In this document: one piece after another, positions 6,272-61,616 of the stretch
Layout of the letters: every line of letters begins with the position of its first letter
How positions within the stretch are numbered: the stretch's first letter is position 1
From: Pseudanabaena mucicola str. Chao 1806
GTDB taxonomy: Bacteria > Cyanobacteriota > Cyanobacteriia > Pseudanabaenales > Pseudanabaenaceae
Direction: 5' to 3'
Length of the DNA stretch: 64,000 nucleotides
NCBI RefSeq assembly: GCF_030323025.1
Contig: NZ_CP097329.1
Span: 2,015,001 to 2,079,000 of the forward strand
The notes under the pieces: generated by a model
The model's database searches: none
Seen by the model: the letters and a program-made list of their open reading frames with translations, nothing else
What the model was told of the DNA's origin: nothing
Made by a program: the position numbers and the translations under genes

Positions 6272-6376
6272 TATAGCAGTTTTCATTTTGCCGTAGGCAA
6301 AATGAAAACTCAAAACTCTTAATGGGACTGATTTTTTGTTTTCAAATGAGTACACACTCATTTGAAAACCGCTATA
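6272..6376. repeat. Palindromic element, family A (copy 1)
   Basis: The left end reads TATAGCAGTTTTCATTTTGC and the right end is its near complement, finishing GAAAACCGCTATA. It contains a tight hairpin around GTA and a second imperfect hairpin around ATGAGTACACACTCAT. The TATA at both ends fits insertion at a TA target. Copies 2 and 3 are near 13582-13685 and 16576-16681. It is non-coding. Confidence 0.8.
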
Positions 6377-9431: not shown

Positions 9432-10448
9432 TTAGATGCTACTTAGTATTTGATTTGTTGCTTGTAACAGGGCAATCGCCTGTTGACTGGAAATATGAGC
9501 AAAGGGCAAACTATCTATTCCCATTGCAACACAGAGTAGTGCTAAATAGAGAATTGAATATTTGAAGACTGATCGCGCAACGGTACGATCACTTGGTTCT
9601 TTGAGTAACTGCTTTGCCTTGTAAATAAATGCTAATCCTAGTCCAACGGCTGACACTGCATAAACCAGCCCCATCACATTACAGGGGAAAACCAATAATA
9701 GGGACACAGGGATAATTAGTAATGTATAGAGCAAAATCTGCTGAGCCGTTACCTCATCACCCTTAACTACAGGTAACATCGGGACACCGACCTTCGCATA
9801 TTCATCGCGAATCATTAGCGCCAAAGCCCAAAAGTGGGGTGGAGTCCAAACGAAGATAATCGCAAATAAGACCCATGCAGCCCAACTTAATTCCCCAGTG
9901 ACGGCAGCCCAACCAACTAGCGGTGGAATTGCACCTGCGGCTCCACCGATAACGATATTTTGAGTACTAGAGCGCTTTAACCAAATCGTATAAATACCAA
10001 CGTAGGTAGCGATACCCGACATGGCGAGACAGGCGGCTAAGAGATTGGCATAGACCGCTAGCAAAGTAAAGGAAATTACGGCAAGGGTGATCGCAAAAAT
10101 CAAAGCATTAAGCGGCTGAATCCTGCCTGAGGGAATGGGTCGCCAACTGGTGCGCTCCATTTTGGCATCAATATCACGATCATATAAACAGTTAAACGCA
10201 TTTGCTGAAGCGGCGGCGATCGCTCCTCCCAAAACCGTAATAAAAATCAAAAATCCGTCAACTTGCCCCTCCGATGCAATCCACATCGCCCCTGCGGTGG
10301 TAATGAGCAACAAAACGATAATCCGTGGCTTGGTTAATTCGGTGTAATCTTGGATCACCCCGCGCCAGTTGCGTTTCACGGACAGATTGGCGGGTGAAAA
10401 GATATTTTCTTCGGAAATAGTTAATTCTTGAATAGCTGTTTCTGGCAT
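9432..10448 (-). CDS. ctaB: Protohaem IX farnesyltransferase (haem O synthase)
   Basis: A polytopic UbiA-family prenyltransferase of 338 residues that farnesylates protohaem to haem O for cytochrome oxidase. The prenyl-diphosphate motif appears as [19 protein letters not shown] (about 85-103), and a second conserved loop as [11 protein letters not shown]. About eight or nine hydrophobic helices are apparent. It sits 37 bases downstream of ctaA on the same strand, so the two form an operon giving haem A. The oxidase subunit genes are not in this window. Confidence 0.93.
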
Positions 10449-10485: not shown

Positions 10486-11493
10486 TTAGCGAATCGCAGG
10501 TTGCGCTTGATTGTGTTCTGTTTGAGATAGGCTAGTGGCTTGTTTAGTGAGTCTAAAGGCTAATACAGTAAAACAGACAAGAGTTCCTAGCAATGCCGAA
10601 CCTGTAGCTTGGTGAGCAATCGTGAGTGGTTCGACTTGCAGATGCAGTTTGTAAGTGGCATAGCCGATCGCGACTTGGGCAATTACTAGTAAGCTAGCCA
10701 ATGATCCTAAAAATCTCAATATGGGAGCGATCACTTTAGCGAGCAATACTGTCAACACCAACGCAACACTAGCAAGAGTTGCAGGAATTACGCCGATTAA
10801 ATGTGCATTCAAAACAATACACATATCCTGTGTCGCAAAACATTGGTGGAGCGCCCATTGAGATGCAACTAAAGCACCGAGAATACTTTGGCAATAAGTC
10901 AAAACTGCTGCTGTTAAACCCAACCAAGCAAACTTAATGGATACACTACGGGTATCCATTAAGTTTGCTTGGTTAGTTAAAGCTGTAGTGATCGCCAACA
11001 AGCTAGAAAAAAATAACAAACCTGTTCCCAAATGGGCAGTAACGATATCAAATCTGAGTAATTGCGTCACCGTCAATCCGCCCAAAATACCTTGAAAAAC
11101 CACCAGAGATAGTGATCCCGAAGTTGCCCAAGGTAACCATTTGGGTAAAGACTGGCGAAAATACCAACTTGCTCCAAATAACACAATTGTGGCAAATCCC
11201 ACGGTAGATGCAACGAGACGATGGAACCATTCTAGAAATACTTGGAGATTCATCTGCTCCGCAGGCAACACCGATCCATAACACAGAGGCCAATCTGGAC
11301 AAGCCAAACCTGCATTCATCACACGAGTAGCACTACCGATCGCCATCACCATCCAAGTAGCAATCGCAATTCCCATCGCAATGCGACGGATGAGGATAAC
11401 TGGCTCTATAAATCGGCTTTTAGCTTGAGGATTGCTATTAGCAAAGGTTTCAGACGCTTGCGCTGGTTTGGAAGAAGTTAAAGAGTCAGTCAT
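10486..11493 (-). CDS. ctaA: Haem A synthase
   Basis: The 335-residue COX15/CtaA-family membrane protein oxidises haem O to haem A. Conserved pieces include GLACPDWPLCYG near residue 64, FHRLVA (about 90), a central HLGTGLLFF, HQCFATQDMC and HQATGSALLG, which supply the haem-ligating histidines. About eight transmembrane helices are visible. A palindrome with 23-bp arms lies within the frame, in the variable loop coding TNQANLMDTRSVSIKFAW, without breaking it. ctaB follows after 37 bases. Confidence 0.92.
   Translation of the reverse strand: MTDSLTSSKPAQASETFANSNPQAKSRFIEPVILIRRIAMGIAIATWMVMAIGSATRVMNAGLACPDWPLCYGSVLPAEQMNLQVFLEWFHRLVASTVGFATIVLFGASWYFRQSLPKWLPWATSGSLSLVVFQGILGGLTVTQLLRFDIVTAHLGTGLLFFSSLLAITTALTNQANLMDTRSVSIKFAWLGLTAAVLTYCQSILGALVASQWALHQCFATQDMCIVLNAHLIGVIPATLASVALVLTVLLAKVIAPILRFLGSLASLLVIAQVAIGYATYKLHLQVEPLTIAHQATGSALLGTLVCFTVLAFRLTKQATSLSQTEHNQAQPAIR
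10922..10974. repeat. Perfect 23-bp-arm palindrome inside ctaA
   Basis: Bases 10922-10944 and 10952-10974 are exact reverse complements separated by ACTACGG. The palindrome lies in coding sequence for a loop between membrane helices of CtaA. Its perfection is not expected from codon use alone, and it may be an in-frame inserted element. Confidence 0.85.
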
Positions 11494-11666: not shown

Positions 11667-11705
11667 CTATAAAGTTAGTGGCGCAATGCGCCACTAACTT
11701 TATAG
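11667..11705 (-). terminator. Hairpin terminator overlapping a stop codon
   Basis: Perfect 18-bp arms (CTATAAAGTTAGTGGCGC and its complement) with a 3-base loop. The last codon and stop of the Spy-like gene fall inside the stem. It has little T-tail, so it may act as a repeat-derived transcript end. Confidence 0.55.
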
Positions 11706-12317
11706 GGTTAAACGATCGCGTAGTTTATCTAGACGCTCTCTACGGTTTTCTAAACGATTTTGCATACGCCCTTTCATATCCTCTCTCAATTGGTCACGAT
11801 TTCTTTCCATGATGTCCTTAAGTTGCCTTCTCTGTTGTGGTGTCAGGACTTCACGCATGGCGAGCATCCGTTCAAAATGCTTGTTTTGCAATTCCCGTTG
11901 CAACTCTATCACTTGCTTATGCTTCGCTCGAATGACATCACTGCCTTCATTACCAGCTAATAAATCTTGCAATTCCTTATTAGTTTGACGTAATTTTTGT
12001 CCCAGTTCACGTATTTGCTTTTGATCGCGATCGCGCACAGCCTTAAGTTTTTGTAATTGCTCAAGAGTGAGATTTAGCTGTTTGAGCACTTTCCCTGATG
12101 GCATATTGGGACTATTAGCCGCAAATTTATTGGTCGATTCAGGCAACTCGGCAAAATTATTGGGATGTTGTAATTGTTTCTGTGTCTCAACTTTGGTTTG
12201 ATCTTGATATTTTACAGACTGAGATTGCAAACTTGCGGTAGTAGAGACAATCACTCCACTAGTGATTGCAGCTGTGGCAGCGATCGCGCAATATTGAAAG
12301 AGCTTTGACTTAAACAT
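11700..12317 (-). CDS. Spy/CpxP-like periplasmic LTxxQ-repeat protein
   Basis: The 205-residue protein has an N-terminal signal-like helix (residues about 7-28) and then a long, charged, all-helical region. Two LTxxQ motifs are visible, LTLEQ (about 83) and LTPQQ (about 159), as in Spy/CpxP-family periplasmic chaperones and metal-stress proteins. The C-terminus is very rich in Arg, Glu and Lys. It follows the sigma and anti-sigma genes on the same strand after 190 bases, so it may be a target of that regulator or the distal gene of the operon. The exact role is unknown. Confidence 0.7.
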   Translation of the reverse strand: MFKSKLFQYCAIAATAAITSGVIVSTTASLQSQSVKYQDQTKVETQKQLQHPNNFAELPESTNKFAANSPNMPSGKVLKQLNLTLEQLQKLKAVRDRDQKQIRELGQKLRQTNKELQDLLAGNEGSDVIRAKHKQVIELQRELQNKHFERMLAMREVLTPQQRRQLKDIMERNRDQLREDMKGRMQNRLENRRERLDKLRDRLTL

Positions 12318-23239: not shown

Positions 23240-23368
23240 TTTACAGTGCACTTTTACCACACTACAGCCTCAATAGGCTGTAGTGTGGTACAGAAATATT
23301 TTTGAAAGTGGCGCTTCGCGCCACTTTCAAAAATATTTCTGGGGTTTAAGTAAGCGCAAAGCGCTCTA
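23240..23368. repeat. Nested hairpins, family E (copy 2)
   Basis: There are two hairpins: ACCACACTACAGCC and its complement (23247-23279), and AGAAATATTTTTGAAAGTGG around CTTCG (about 23281-23341). The family end GTAAGCGCAAAGCGCTCTA follows. Compare the family members at 46025-46104 and 61310-61410. Confidence 0.55.
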
Positions 23369-39714: not shown

Positions 39715-40463
39715 ATGGTCTCAGCTACTTCAGGTGACGATAACAGCAGTCTCATACAAACAACTCTTGAATGGATTGCTAATGCAGGAATTAATGGTTT
39801 GGGAGTTTTGCCATCTGCGAAGCAGGTCGCTGAAGAACATTTGAGTAGGGCTGCCAGTGTTGAGGATGCCATTAATTCGATCATTGCTTGGAGAACAACC
39901 CATGCTGCTAGCACTGGTTTTATCACTGGATTAGGAGGTATTGCCGCAATGCCCGTTACTATTCCCGCAGGTTTACTTGCATCCTATGCCCTTGGAGCAA
40001 ATACGGCTGCCGCAGTTGCTTATCTTCGAGGGTATGACATTCACTCTGAACACGTAAGAACAATGGTTCTGTTATGTCTAATTGGCGAAGCTGGAGAAGA
40101 AATTCTTAAAAACGCTGGAATTGTAAGTAGCTAGGCATAAATAAAATAAAAACTGAAAAGATTGTTCCGCCCGCGTAGCGGGCGGAACAATTCCTGGTTT
40201 TAGGTTTTAATATGCTCATCTACTTAATCGGTACAAAAGTGTGTCAAAACCTCATCAAGAGAATACCTGGTAGGGTTCTCATTGAAATCAATAAGAAGAT
40301 TGGTTTTCGGCTAATCACTAAAGCTGGTGAAAAAGGCGTAGTAAATGTCATGAAAATGTTGCCTCTAGTTGGTGGGGTTGTTGGAGGCACTTTTGACGGC
40401 ATATTTGTGAATAGTTGTGGAAAGACTGCAAAAACTGTATTTGTCCAAGCGTCAGACAAATAA
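39715..40463 (+). pseudogene. EcsC-like gene split by a 99-bp miniature element
   Basis: The first part (39715-40134) codes 139 residues with SLIQTTLEWIANAG and AAMPVTIPAGLLASYALGAN, then stops inside the element. The second part (to 40463) codes GTKVCQNLIKRIPGRVLIEI, ITKAGEKGVVNVMKMLPLVG and a short tail, the usual C-terminal half of the EcsC family. Removing 40126-40224 plus one TA joins GGA ATT GTA to ATC GGT without shifting the frame and yields 215 residues. The gene was therefore intact before insertion. EcsC proteins are membrane-associated with no clear enzyme activity. Confidence 0.8.
40126..40224. repeat. Miniature element, family B (copy 2), inserted in an EcsC-like gene
   Basis: AGTAGCTAGGCATAA at the left, the GTTCCGCCCGC hairpin in the middle and CATCTACT at the right, with TA on both sides (40124-40125 and 40225-40226). 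Overall layout matches copy 1 at 16416-16515. The insertion supplies the premature stop codon of the upstream half-gene. Confidence 0.9.
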
Positions 40464-45937: not shown

Positions 45938-46024
45938 TCGCAGCAATATAAAAGAGTTAGCTATATCCTAACTATAACCCTCCCAATGGTTTAGAGGTGA
46001 GCCGCGCAAAGCATTGTTCCCCAA

Positions 46025-46104
46025 CAAGAGGTATTTTGAAAGTGTTGCTTCGCAACACTTTCAAAATACCTCTTGTGAGATTTAAGCTTGAGCGCAAAGC
46101 GCTG
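46025..46104. repeat. Hairpin element, family E (copy 1)
   Basis: Perfect 24-bp arms starting CAAGAGGTATTTTG (46025-46048 / 46052-46075) around TTC, followed by the family end GAGCGCAAAGCGCTG and TA. The left end is degenerate. It lies between uvrA and the cupin gene. Confidence 0.7.
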
Positions 46105-50830: not shown

Positions 50831-50879
50831 TCCCATAGCAGGATAGTCTGTGCAAAGCACAGACTATCCTGCTATGGGA
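50831..50879. repeat. Perfect hairpin with 23-bp arms
   Basis: TCCCATAGCAGGATAGTCTG continues to TGC, loop AAA, then the full complement. It lies between der and dxr, preceded by GAGAACTCACGTTAA, which resembles the end of family C. No copy is found elsewhere in the window. Confidence 0.7.
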
Positions 50880-53591: not shown

Positions 53592-53666
53592 GAAAATGGT
53601 AAAAATCGCTAAGCGATTTTTACCATTTTCTGCCATTTGCGCGGCGCTTCGCGCCGCGCAAATGGC
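53592..53666. repeat. Two adjacent perfect hairpins
   Basis: GAAAATGGTAAAAATCGC with its complement (53592-53630, loop TAA), then GCCATTTGCGCGGCGC with its complement (53632-53666, loop TTC). They lie upstream of the Uma2 gene, followed by CGAACTCACGTTA, which resembles the family C end. Confidence 0.65.
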
Positions 53667-61111: not shown

Positions 61112-61616
61112 AGATTATAAAAACGAAGATTTTAGCTGTGATTTTACAGATAAACTAAGACTACTTAATAGAGATTTACGATCAAAAAATAATTTATAAA
61201 AAAGTATCTAGAAAAAAGGCTTTTAGTTTACTAAATTAAAAGCGATAAATCAAAAAAATAATAACAACGATGCTAACCACTCTCCAAAATTGTCAAATAT
61301 TTACTTTTACAGCAGTTTTCGATCAAACGAACCACAAGACATTTCCTGAAAAGCTTGTCTCGCAAGCTTTTCAGGAAATGTCTTGGTTTGGTTTTGAGCG
61401 CAAAGTGCTGTAAATTTACCTCAAGACAACTCCAAGCTAGATACATTTGCGTTTGTAAATAGTTGACTAAGTTTCTTCCTCGACCAAAGTCAAACAGGGA
61501 TAAAATCTCTAGTTCAGAGATTGAATATTTGAGACAGAAGATAGATATCATTGTATTCATCAAAGCAATTAAAATGCGAGACCTAGCTATTTTTTATAGG
61601 AGCATCCAAGTTTGCG
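61112..61616. other. Gene-free region holding a family E element
   Basis: Apart from the repeat at 61310-61410, no convincing gene is seen. A minus-strand frame ending about 61290 reads ILSLFDFGRGRNLVNYLQ but has no recognised family, and it spans the element. Confidence 0.35.
61310..61410. repeat. Miniature element, family E (copy 3), TA target site
   Basis: CAGCAGTTTTCGATCAAA at the left and, on the other strand, CAGCACTTTGCGCTCAAA at the right, with TA outside both ends (61308-61309 / 61411-61412). The centre is a hairpin of AAGACATTTCCTGAAAAGCT with its complement. It is the best-preserved family E copy. Confidence 0.8.

Follow-up and report, generated by a model that had tools for sequence, protein, structure and literature searches.

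A home-grown inverted repeat in the ctaA gene of Pseudanabaena, probably created and maintained by replication template switching

Small inversions of plastid genomes are said to consist of flips of a hairpin loop. By its title and terms, one report on them (PMC6824564) places them at hairpins; the setting there is a plastid system, whereas the case described here, a perfect palindrome within the haem A synthase gene ctaA of Pseudanabaena mucicola str. Chao 1806, lies in a bacterial protein gene. In genes of Saccharomyces cerevisiae, template switching between the arms of inverted repeats has been described (Abraham and Hazkani-Covo 2021; PMC8604942), with a model in which the nascent strand folds or passes to the opposite strand in one arm and comes back in the other. 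As set out in that report, the yeast cases resemble ctaA in their arm homogenisation and in the exact, nonsynonymous inversion of short spacers within coding genes, and also in that the arms are mostly already perfect and the flips repeated. The flipped coding repeats described there have arms of 10 to 16 bp and belong to one species, whereas those of ctaA are bacterial, have 23-bp arms, and combine an axis common to much of a genus with turnover of the arm sequences. Template switches were also described as creating and maintaining RNA hairpins and as inverting rRNA loops (Monttinen and Loytynoja 2022; PMC8794818); there, too, a single event yields compensatory changes, and inversions of the loop only are reported, bacterial rRNA included, but that account concerns structural RNA genes and ctaA is a protein gene. 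On their published description, the coding palindromes of nematomorph mitochondria (PMC6649704) are the nearest in kind to the ctaA case, being perfect inverted repeats in protein genes that are gained and lost and are perhaps kept by repeat conversion. They are numerous, reach up to 284 bp, and occur in animal mitochondria; spacer flips were not met in the available text of that report. The palindromic elements of Rickettsia (PMC3767692) share with ctaA the presence of palindromic DNA in open frames and at exposed places; as described, they are dispersed insertions of 100 to 150 bp in many genes, whereas the ctaA palindrome is single copy and adds no insertion.

The palindrome lies in a 64,000-nucleotide stretch (hereafter, the window; positions 2,015,001 to 2,079,000 of NZ_CP097329.1) of a 4.53-Mb genome represented by one contig. 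A preliminary description of the window had reported a perfect palindrome with 23-bp arms around a 7-base loop that left the reading frame open, and both points held: the arms, at 10922-10944 and 10952-10974, are 100% complementary, stand 7 nt apart, and sit within an uninterrupted 335-aa ORF on the minus strand. The features of the locus are as follows.

9432..10448, minus strand: downstream UbiA-family gene (ctaB-like), on the same strand as ctaA (ORF list; Pfam)
10486..11493, minus strand: ctaA, haem A synthase family, 335 aa (ORF list; Pfam COX15-CtaA; PDB 6a2j match)
10922..10944, minus strand: 3' arm (gene sense) GTATCCATTAAGTTTGCTTGGTT, encoding VSIKFAWL
10945..10951, minus strand: 7-nt spacer, CCGTAGT in gene sense; ACTACGG in the sister genome G058, TRSV becoming TLRV
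10952..10974, minus strand: 5' arm (gene sense) AACCAAGCAAACTTAATGGATAC, encoding NQANLMD(T)

The ORF at 10486-11493 was assigned to COX15-CtaA by Pfam (1.7e-29), and its best solved relative was the haem A synthase 6a2j (PDB; E = 7e-9). The match to 6a2j stops at CtaA residue 172 (chain residue 147), and the second half of 6a2j, from chain residue 171, weakly fits the same CtaA repeat (i-Evalue 0.27). The palindrome corresponds to CtaA residues 174 to 191 and, from this weak alignment, appears to lie in the linker joining the two CtaA halves, which agrees with its earlier placement in a variable loop between helices. A chance product of conserved amino acids was ruled out by synonymous re-coding of the loop peptide, which failed to produce the palindrome: 0 of 200 re-codings reached its score of 23. 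Codon shuffling of 50.4 kb of coding DNA, repeated 10 times, never gave arms of at least 15 nt and gave arms of at least 11 nt four times in total. Among 183 ORFs of at least 100 aa, mechanically called in 244 kb of this genome, the ctaA palindrome was the sole one with arms of at least 15 nt to lie wholly inside an ORF; within the same 244 kb, 57 such palindromes lay between ORFs and 10 at ORF edges.

The preliminary description had likened the palindrome to the in-frame inserts of Rickettsia (RPE) and had expected an insertion of about 17 residues. The palindrome does lie within an unbroken reading frame and in a loop, as an RPE-like element would, but it spans 53 nt only and adds no length relative to its orthologues. 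The loop segment, measured from LLFF to the residue preceding ILGALVASQ, is 45 aa in the window and 42 to 51 aa across relatives in the genus, with 44 aa in the three nearest species and exactly 45 aa in seven others; a CtaA match was present in all 24 of the same-genus genomes searched. Nor is the sequence dispersed or multicopy. The suggested search for the same palindrome in other genes of the 4.53-Mb genome found none, since the 23-nt arm, at up to 3 mismatches, had no place there beyond its own two sites, and a blastn search returned only the locus itself, on both strands. A loop as long as those of relatives and an arm that is unique both count against an RPE-like element, an origin that was ruled out on loop length and copy number and that we regard as barely credible. 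That description had also named relatives of equal loop length with unrelated DNA and no palindrome as an outcome contrary to its proposal; the loop length is indeed common to relatives, but many of them bear a palindrome at this place, of different sequence. A plasmid origin of ctaA was rejected separately, as the gene had no megablast match in the plasmid collection.

Palindromes at the corresponding place were found across much of the genus. Among 26 distinct ctaA sequences of the genus scanned for the best inverted repeat of the loop, this repeat lay on one common axis in 15, comprising 13 with scores of at least 8.5 and two weak ones (L042, 7; L019, 6). The axis stands 43.0 nt before the end of the segment, or 41.5 nt in the three nearest species, whose segment is one codon shorter. 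Perfect arms measured 23 nt in the window and in G058, 19 nt in UWO311, 17 nt in G017, and 14 nt in lw0831, and their sequences differ; the other eight clear on-axis repeats were imperfect, with 13/16 to 15/16 matches. Under synonymous re-coding (200 trials), p was ≤0.03 in 12 of the 13 clear cases and 0.10 in P. frigida, and L018 had a stronger repeat elsewhere in the gene (12.5, versus 8.5 on the axis). The best repeat was off the axis in the other 11 sequences, with p ≤0.03 for two of them (L016 and L021). L007, L013, and L016 had no clear on-axis palindrome and yet fell among species that have one, in a tree of which several nodes are weak. On this distribution, the ctaA palindrome is an old feature of the gene, with an axis common to much of the genus. 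Twenty near relatives were in named genomes (at least 71% identity; L033-L052), 16 of them called Pseudanabaena and the other four being Phormidium tenue FACHB-1050, one Oscillatoriales genome, and two uncultured cyanobacteria. An origin of the palindrome common to other cyanobacteria was rejected: none of 65 distant CtaA rows, which include some duplicates (e.g., L028/L053), had p ≤0.02, the best value among the top 8 rows listed being 0.05.

Covariation between the arms was assessed on the 8 of 26 sequences that have the loop length of the window, with the near-duplicate G058 and all other lengths excluded. Pairing at the axis involved 139 of 184 cells, against 26 to 85 when the pairing was slid by 1 to 6 nt, and at least two pair types were present at 11 of the 23 pairs on the axis, against 1 to 9 when slid (the maximum of 9 at a slide of -4). 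The arms of a sequence matched each other at a mean of 17.4 of 23 positions and those of other species at a mean of 14.2 of 23, and shuffling of the 3' arms among species reached the observed total in 0.085% of 20,000 trials (p = 0.00085). In simulations of arms evolving independently from a palindromic ancestor along a ctaA tree built without the loop columns, which are neutral and ignore protein constraint, the own-minus-cross difference had a mean of 0.02 to 0.10 (sd, 0.4 to 0.7) versus the 3.16 observed; at every one of six rates, all 1500 runs fell short of this value. Three matched double changes are seen in the sister species G017 and lw0831. Arm homogenisation was found on these 8 equal-length sequences of 26; two pairs of sequences do not show it, L008 and L014 having five differences in the 5' arm and zero in the 3' arm, and L010 and L011 having three sites altered in both arms, none of them paired in both. 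The arm-to-arm match can be followed by eye into the peptide, where a 5' A goes with a 3' A-W and, in G017 and UWO311, a 5' G goes with P-W, as arm complementarity demands; L018 (P-W without the G) and SR411 (T with A-W) do not follow this pattern.

The sister genome G058 (L043) is the metagenome-assembled Pseudanabaena sp. M53BS1SP1A06MG and was ~99.4% identical to the window genome over the ~127 kb compared (43,962 + 13,304 + 3,328 + 66,645 bp; 721 differing columns, including gaps). Between these close genomes, the ctaA arms are intact and identical, and the spacer is exactly inverted, ACTACGG in G058 being the reverse complement of CCGTAGT in the window; the flip alters the protein from MDTRSV to MDTLRV. 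A 16.9-kb comparison with G058 contained two more palindromes with exactly inverted spacers. Flipped palindromes elsewhere in the window are as follows.

6278..6310, no strand: palindrome, arm 15, spacer 3, flipped GTA/TAC in G058
23255..23290, no strand: palindrome, arm 16, spacer 4, flipped CAAT/ATTG in G058
40161..40191, no strand: palindrome, arm 14, spacer 3, flipped GTA/TAC in G058
46024..46076, no strand: palindrome, arm 25, spacer 3, flipped TTC/GAA in G058
50831..50879, no strand: palindrome, arm 23, spacer 3, flipped AAA/TTT in G058
53592..53630, no strand: palindrome, arm 19, spacer 1, A/T in G058, a 1-nt flip indistinguishable from a substitution
61335..61385, no strand: palindrome, arm 23, spacer 5, flipped TCTCG/CGAGA in G058, plus one arm change

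Across the ~127-kb alignment, 72 palindromes with arms of at least 10 and spacers of at most 20 nt were counted, and flips were scored by spacer irrespective of arm changes. Sixteen were exact flips (two with 1-nt spacers and so inseparable from substitution; some with an arm change besides), 50 were unchanged, 2 were otherwise changed, and 4 had no spacer. Exact flips thus made up 16 of the 66 scorable palindromes, and every flipped spacer was ≤8 nt (16/49 at 1 to 8 nt and 0/17 at ≥9 nt; rank test over all 66, p = 0.07). With arms of at least 12 and spacers of at most 10 nt (n = 50), there were 15 flips, 33 unchanged, and 2 without spacer; counted from the G058 side (n = 50), the figures were 16 flips, 31 unchanged, 1 nearly so, and 2 without spacer. 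As a control, blocks of 3, 4, 5, or 7 nt off the listed palindromes contained 4 exact inversions in 494,940 overlapping blocks from three of four comparison sets, and one of the four was plainly within a palindrome. Judged from the aligned sequences, spacer flipping is general among palindromes of the window genome compared with G058. Flips at about a quarter of the palindromes between two close genomes set this case apart from the yeast one as described (PMC8604942).

G058 being a metagenome assembly, the flips might be artefacts of its assembly; by reasoning, a k-mer graph can cross a palindrome either way if k does not exceed the arm. Twelve of the 16 flips, however, have arms shorter than 21 nt, and arm length had no significant effect (flips in 4/11 palindromes with arms of ≥21 nt and in 12/55 below; rank p = 0.25). 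Flips also recurred in another genome pair, G022 and G002, which are ~6.9% apart over the 80.9 kb compared and in which the stretches aligned belong to contigs 4.80 and 4.73 Mb long. Eleven G022 palindromes compared with G002 comprised 4 flips (one of 1 nt), 1 near flip, 3 unchanged, 2 otherwise changed, and 1 gapped; in the reverse direction, 13 G002 palindromes comprised 4 flips, 3 unchanged, 3 otherwise changed, and 3 gapped. Flipping is therefore not peculiar to one assembly. Since most flips are short-armed and flips recur in this second pair, assembly error is improbable as their source, and it would leave the covariation of the relatives' arms unexplained.

Arm changes in the same pair were matched double changes in 13 cases and single in 4 on the G022 side; on the G002 side, 8 were matched doubles, 8 single, and 1 an unmatched double. 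Paired arm changes thus appear to occur often, though the G002-side count is weaker. Other comparisons gave fewer flips: G021 versus G002, 1 flip in 6 palindromes; G022 versus G021, 0 exact flips in 4 palindromes, each with arm changes; the window versus G002, 0 flips in 5 palindromes (1 unchanged, 1 spacer substitution, and 3 with arm changes); and the window versus G021 (2 palindromes) and G022 (5 palindromes), 0 flips counted. A perfect 19-bp palindrome with a 1-nt spacer is present at 11667-11705 of the window, at the 3' end of the ORF at 11700-12317; its equivalent in G002 carries one change that is matched across the arms and another that is not.

Inversion by a site-specific recombinase, making the ctaA palindrome an intragenic inverton, would account for inverted repeats that flank an inverted segment and for the altered coding sequence. 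The flipped palindromes have unrelated arm sequences, however, and spacers of 1 to 8 nt are very short for recombinase synapsis. From the short spacers and unrelated arms together, we consider a recombinase highly improbable.

A different explanation invokes selection for an mRNA (or DNA) hairpin that keeps the arms complementary, for example through a translational pause between the CtaA halves, with the flips as a side effect. The preliminary description had foreseen a strong hairpin in the message, and the predicted folds bear this out: the stem is very stable in both genomes (-39.3 kcal/mol, z = -10.2, in the window; -41.1 kcal/mol in G058), and it apparently falls at the linker between the CtaA halves. 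Thirteen of the 26 genus sequences have a clear palindrome, though arms of at least 15 nt occur in no other of the 183 ORFs sampled. Speaking against such selection, the other 13 of 26 sequences have no clear on-axis palindrome, none of the 65 distant rows reached p ≤0.02, and, by eye, imperfect copies hold A-C and U-U mismatches beside G-U. The compensatory changes that a conserved mRNA structure would be expected to show, with tolerance of wobble pairs, are present in the arms, any excess of wobble being gauged by eye. Intergenic palindromes also flip their spacers and pair their arm changes, so a general process suffices without hairpin selection, which we regard as rather unlikely.

We therefore favor template switching. 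Exact spacer inversion together with arm homogenisation is the signature described in the yeast report (PMC8604942) and points to the same process here. The palindrome of the linker between TM4 and TM5 of CtaA is, in our judgment, likely to be a home-grown inverted repeat, created and maintained by template switching during replication. Under this proposal, the variable N-Q-A-S-F-V-D codons would have been overwritten, in an ancestor, with the antisense of the conserved S-T-K-L-A-W-L codons that come after them. A nascent strand switching inside the hairpin would then re-copy one arm from the other, which would appear as homogenisation, and a switch to the complementary strand and back would turn the spacer round; a loop that tolerates the outcome would allow the changes to become fixed. 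The direction of the original copying is suggested by the 3' side (K-L-A-W-L), which looks more conserved in the protein alignment, the AWL part of the 3' arm being by eye the more conserved side among relatives, which makes the 5' side the probable antisense copy. Because ctaA has the only long coding palindrome in the 183 ORFs, mutation alone would have to explain the persistence of the locus.

A fuller statement can be made, on which we find the balance about even: that antisense copying of the conserved half of the linker gave rise to the N-terminal half preceding it, that over much of the history of the genus template switching rather than protein selection has kept the two halves matched, and that spacer flipping proceeds on a strain-level time scale. 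The template-switch process itself is already known, and ctaA would be a long-lived, bacterial protein-coding case of it, by a mechanism that we infer from sequence. Among the matches listed from the open-licence literature, there was no report of spacer flips or of co-evolving coding palindromes in Pseudanabaena, no precedent for a bacterial protein gene with arm turnover around a palindrome axis common to much of a genus, and no precedent for a comparably high share of flipped palindromes between close genomes. The case suggests that, in a bacterial protein gene and across much of a genus, copying at the DNA level can turn the antisense of a conserved neighbour segment into new protein sequence and then hold the two matched, an outcome that might pass for selection or for an insertion. 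Between strains ~0.6% apart, some quarter to one third of the palindromes differ by this flip; by extrapolation, if true, the genome would hold hundreds of natural switches that record strand switching in replication, and so high a share between close genomes would offer a natural read-out of strand switching, measurable in a cultured cyanobacterium. With regard to a cause, a search of the source genome gave no member of the ExoI C-terminal family, but just 1 of 14 controls had one, whereas the ExoVII large subunit and SbcD families were present in the source genome; as the ExoI family is rare in the controls too, nothing is concluded about loss of a hairpin nuclease.

Several further observations concern the palindromes and repeats of these genomes. 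The 64-kb window contains 29 perfect palindromes with arms of at least 12 and spacers of at most 10 nt, mostly intergenic, including 21 with arms of at least 15 nt; 100 kb of E. coli MG1655 contained 4 with arms of at least 12 and spacers of at most 10 nt and none with arms of at least 15 nt. About 1 kb of the window (~282-1299) is missing from G058, whose flanks overlap by 8 bp, and this segment holds a 314-aa ORF that resembles an IS1595-type transposase. On contig C135 of G058, ~67 kb matches a region near 4.2 Mb of G000 and the remainder matches the window, so that either the genomes are rearranged or the assembly was wrongly joined there. G000 also contains repeats of ~100 to 140 bp, roughly 85 to 99% identical and present in dozens of copies, which are perhaps MITE-like.
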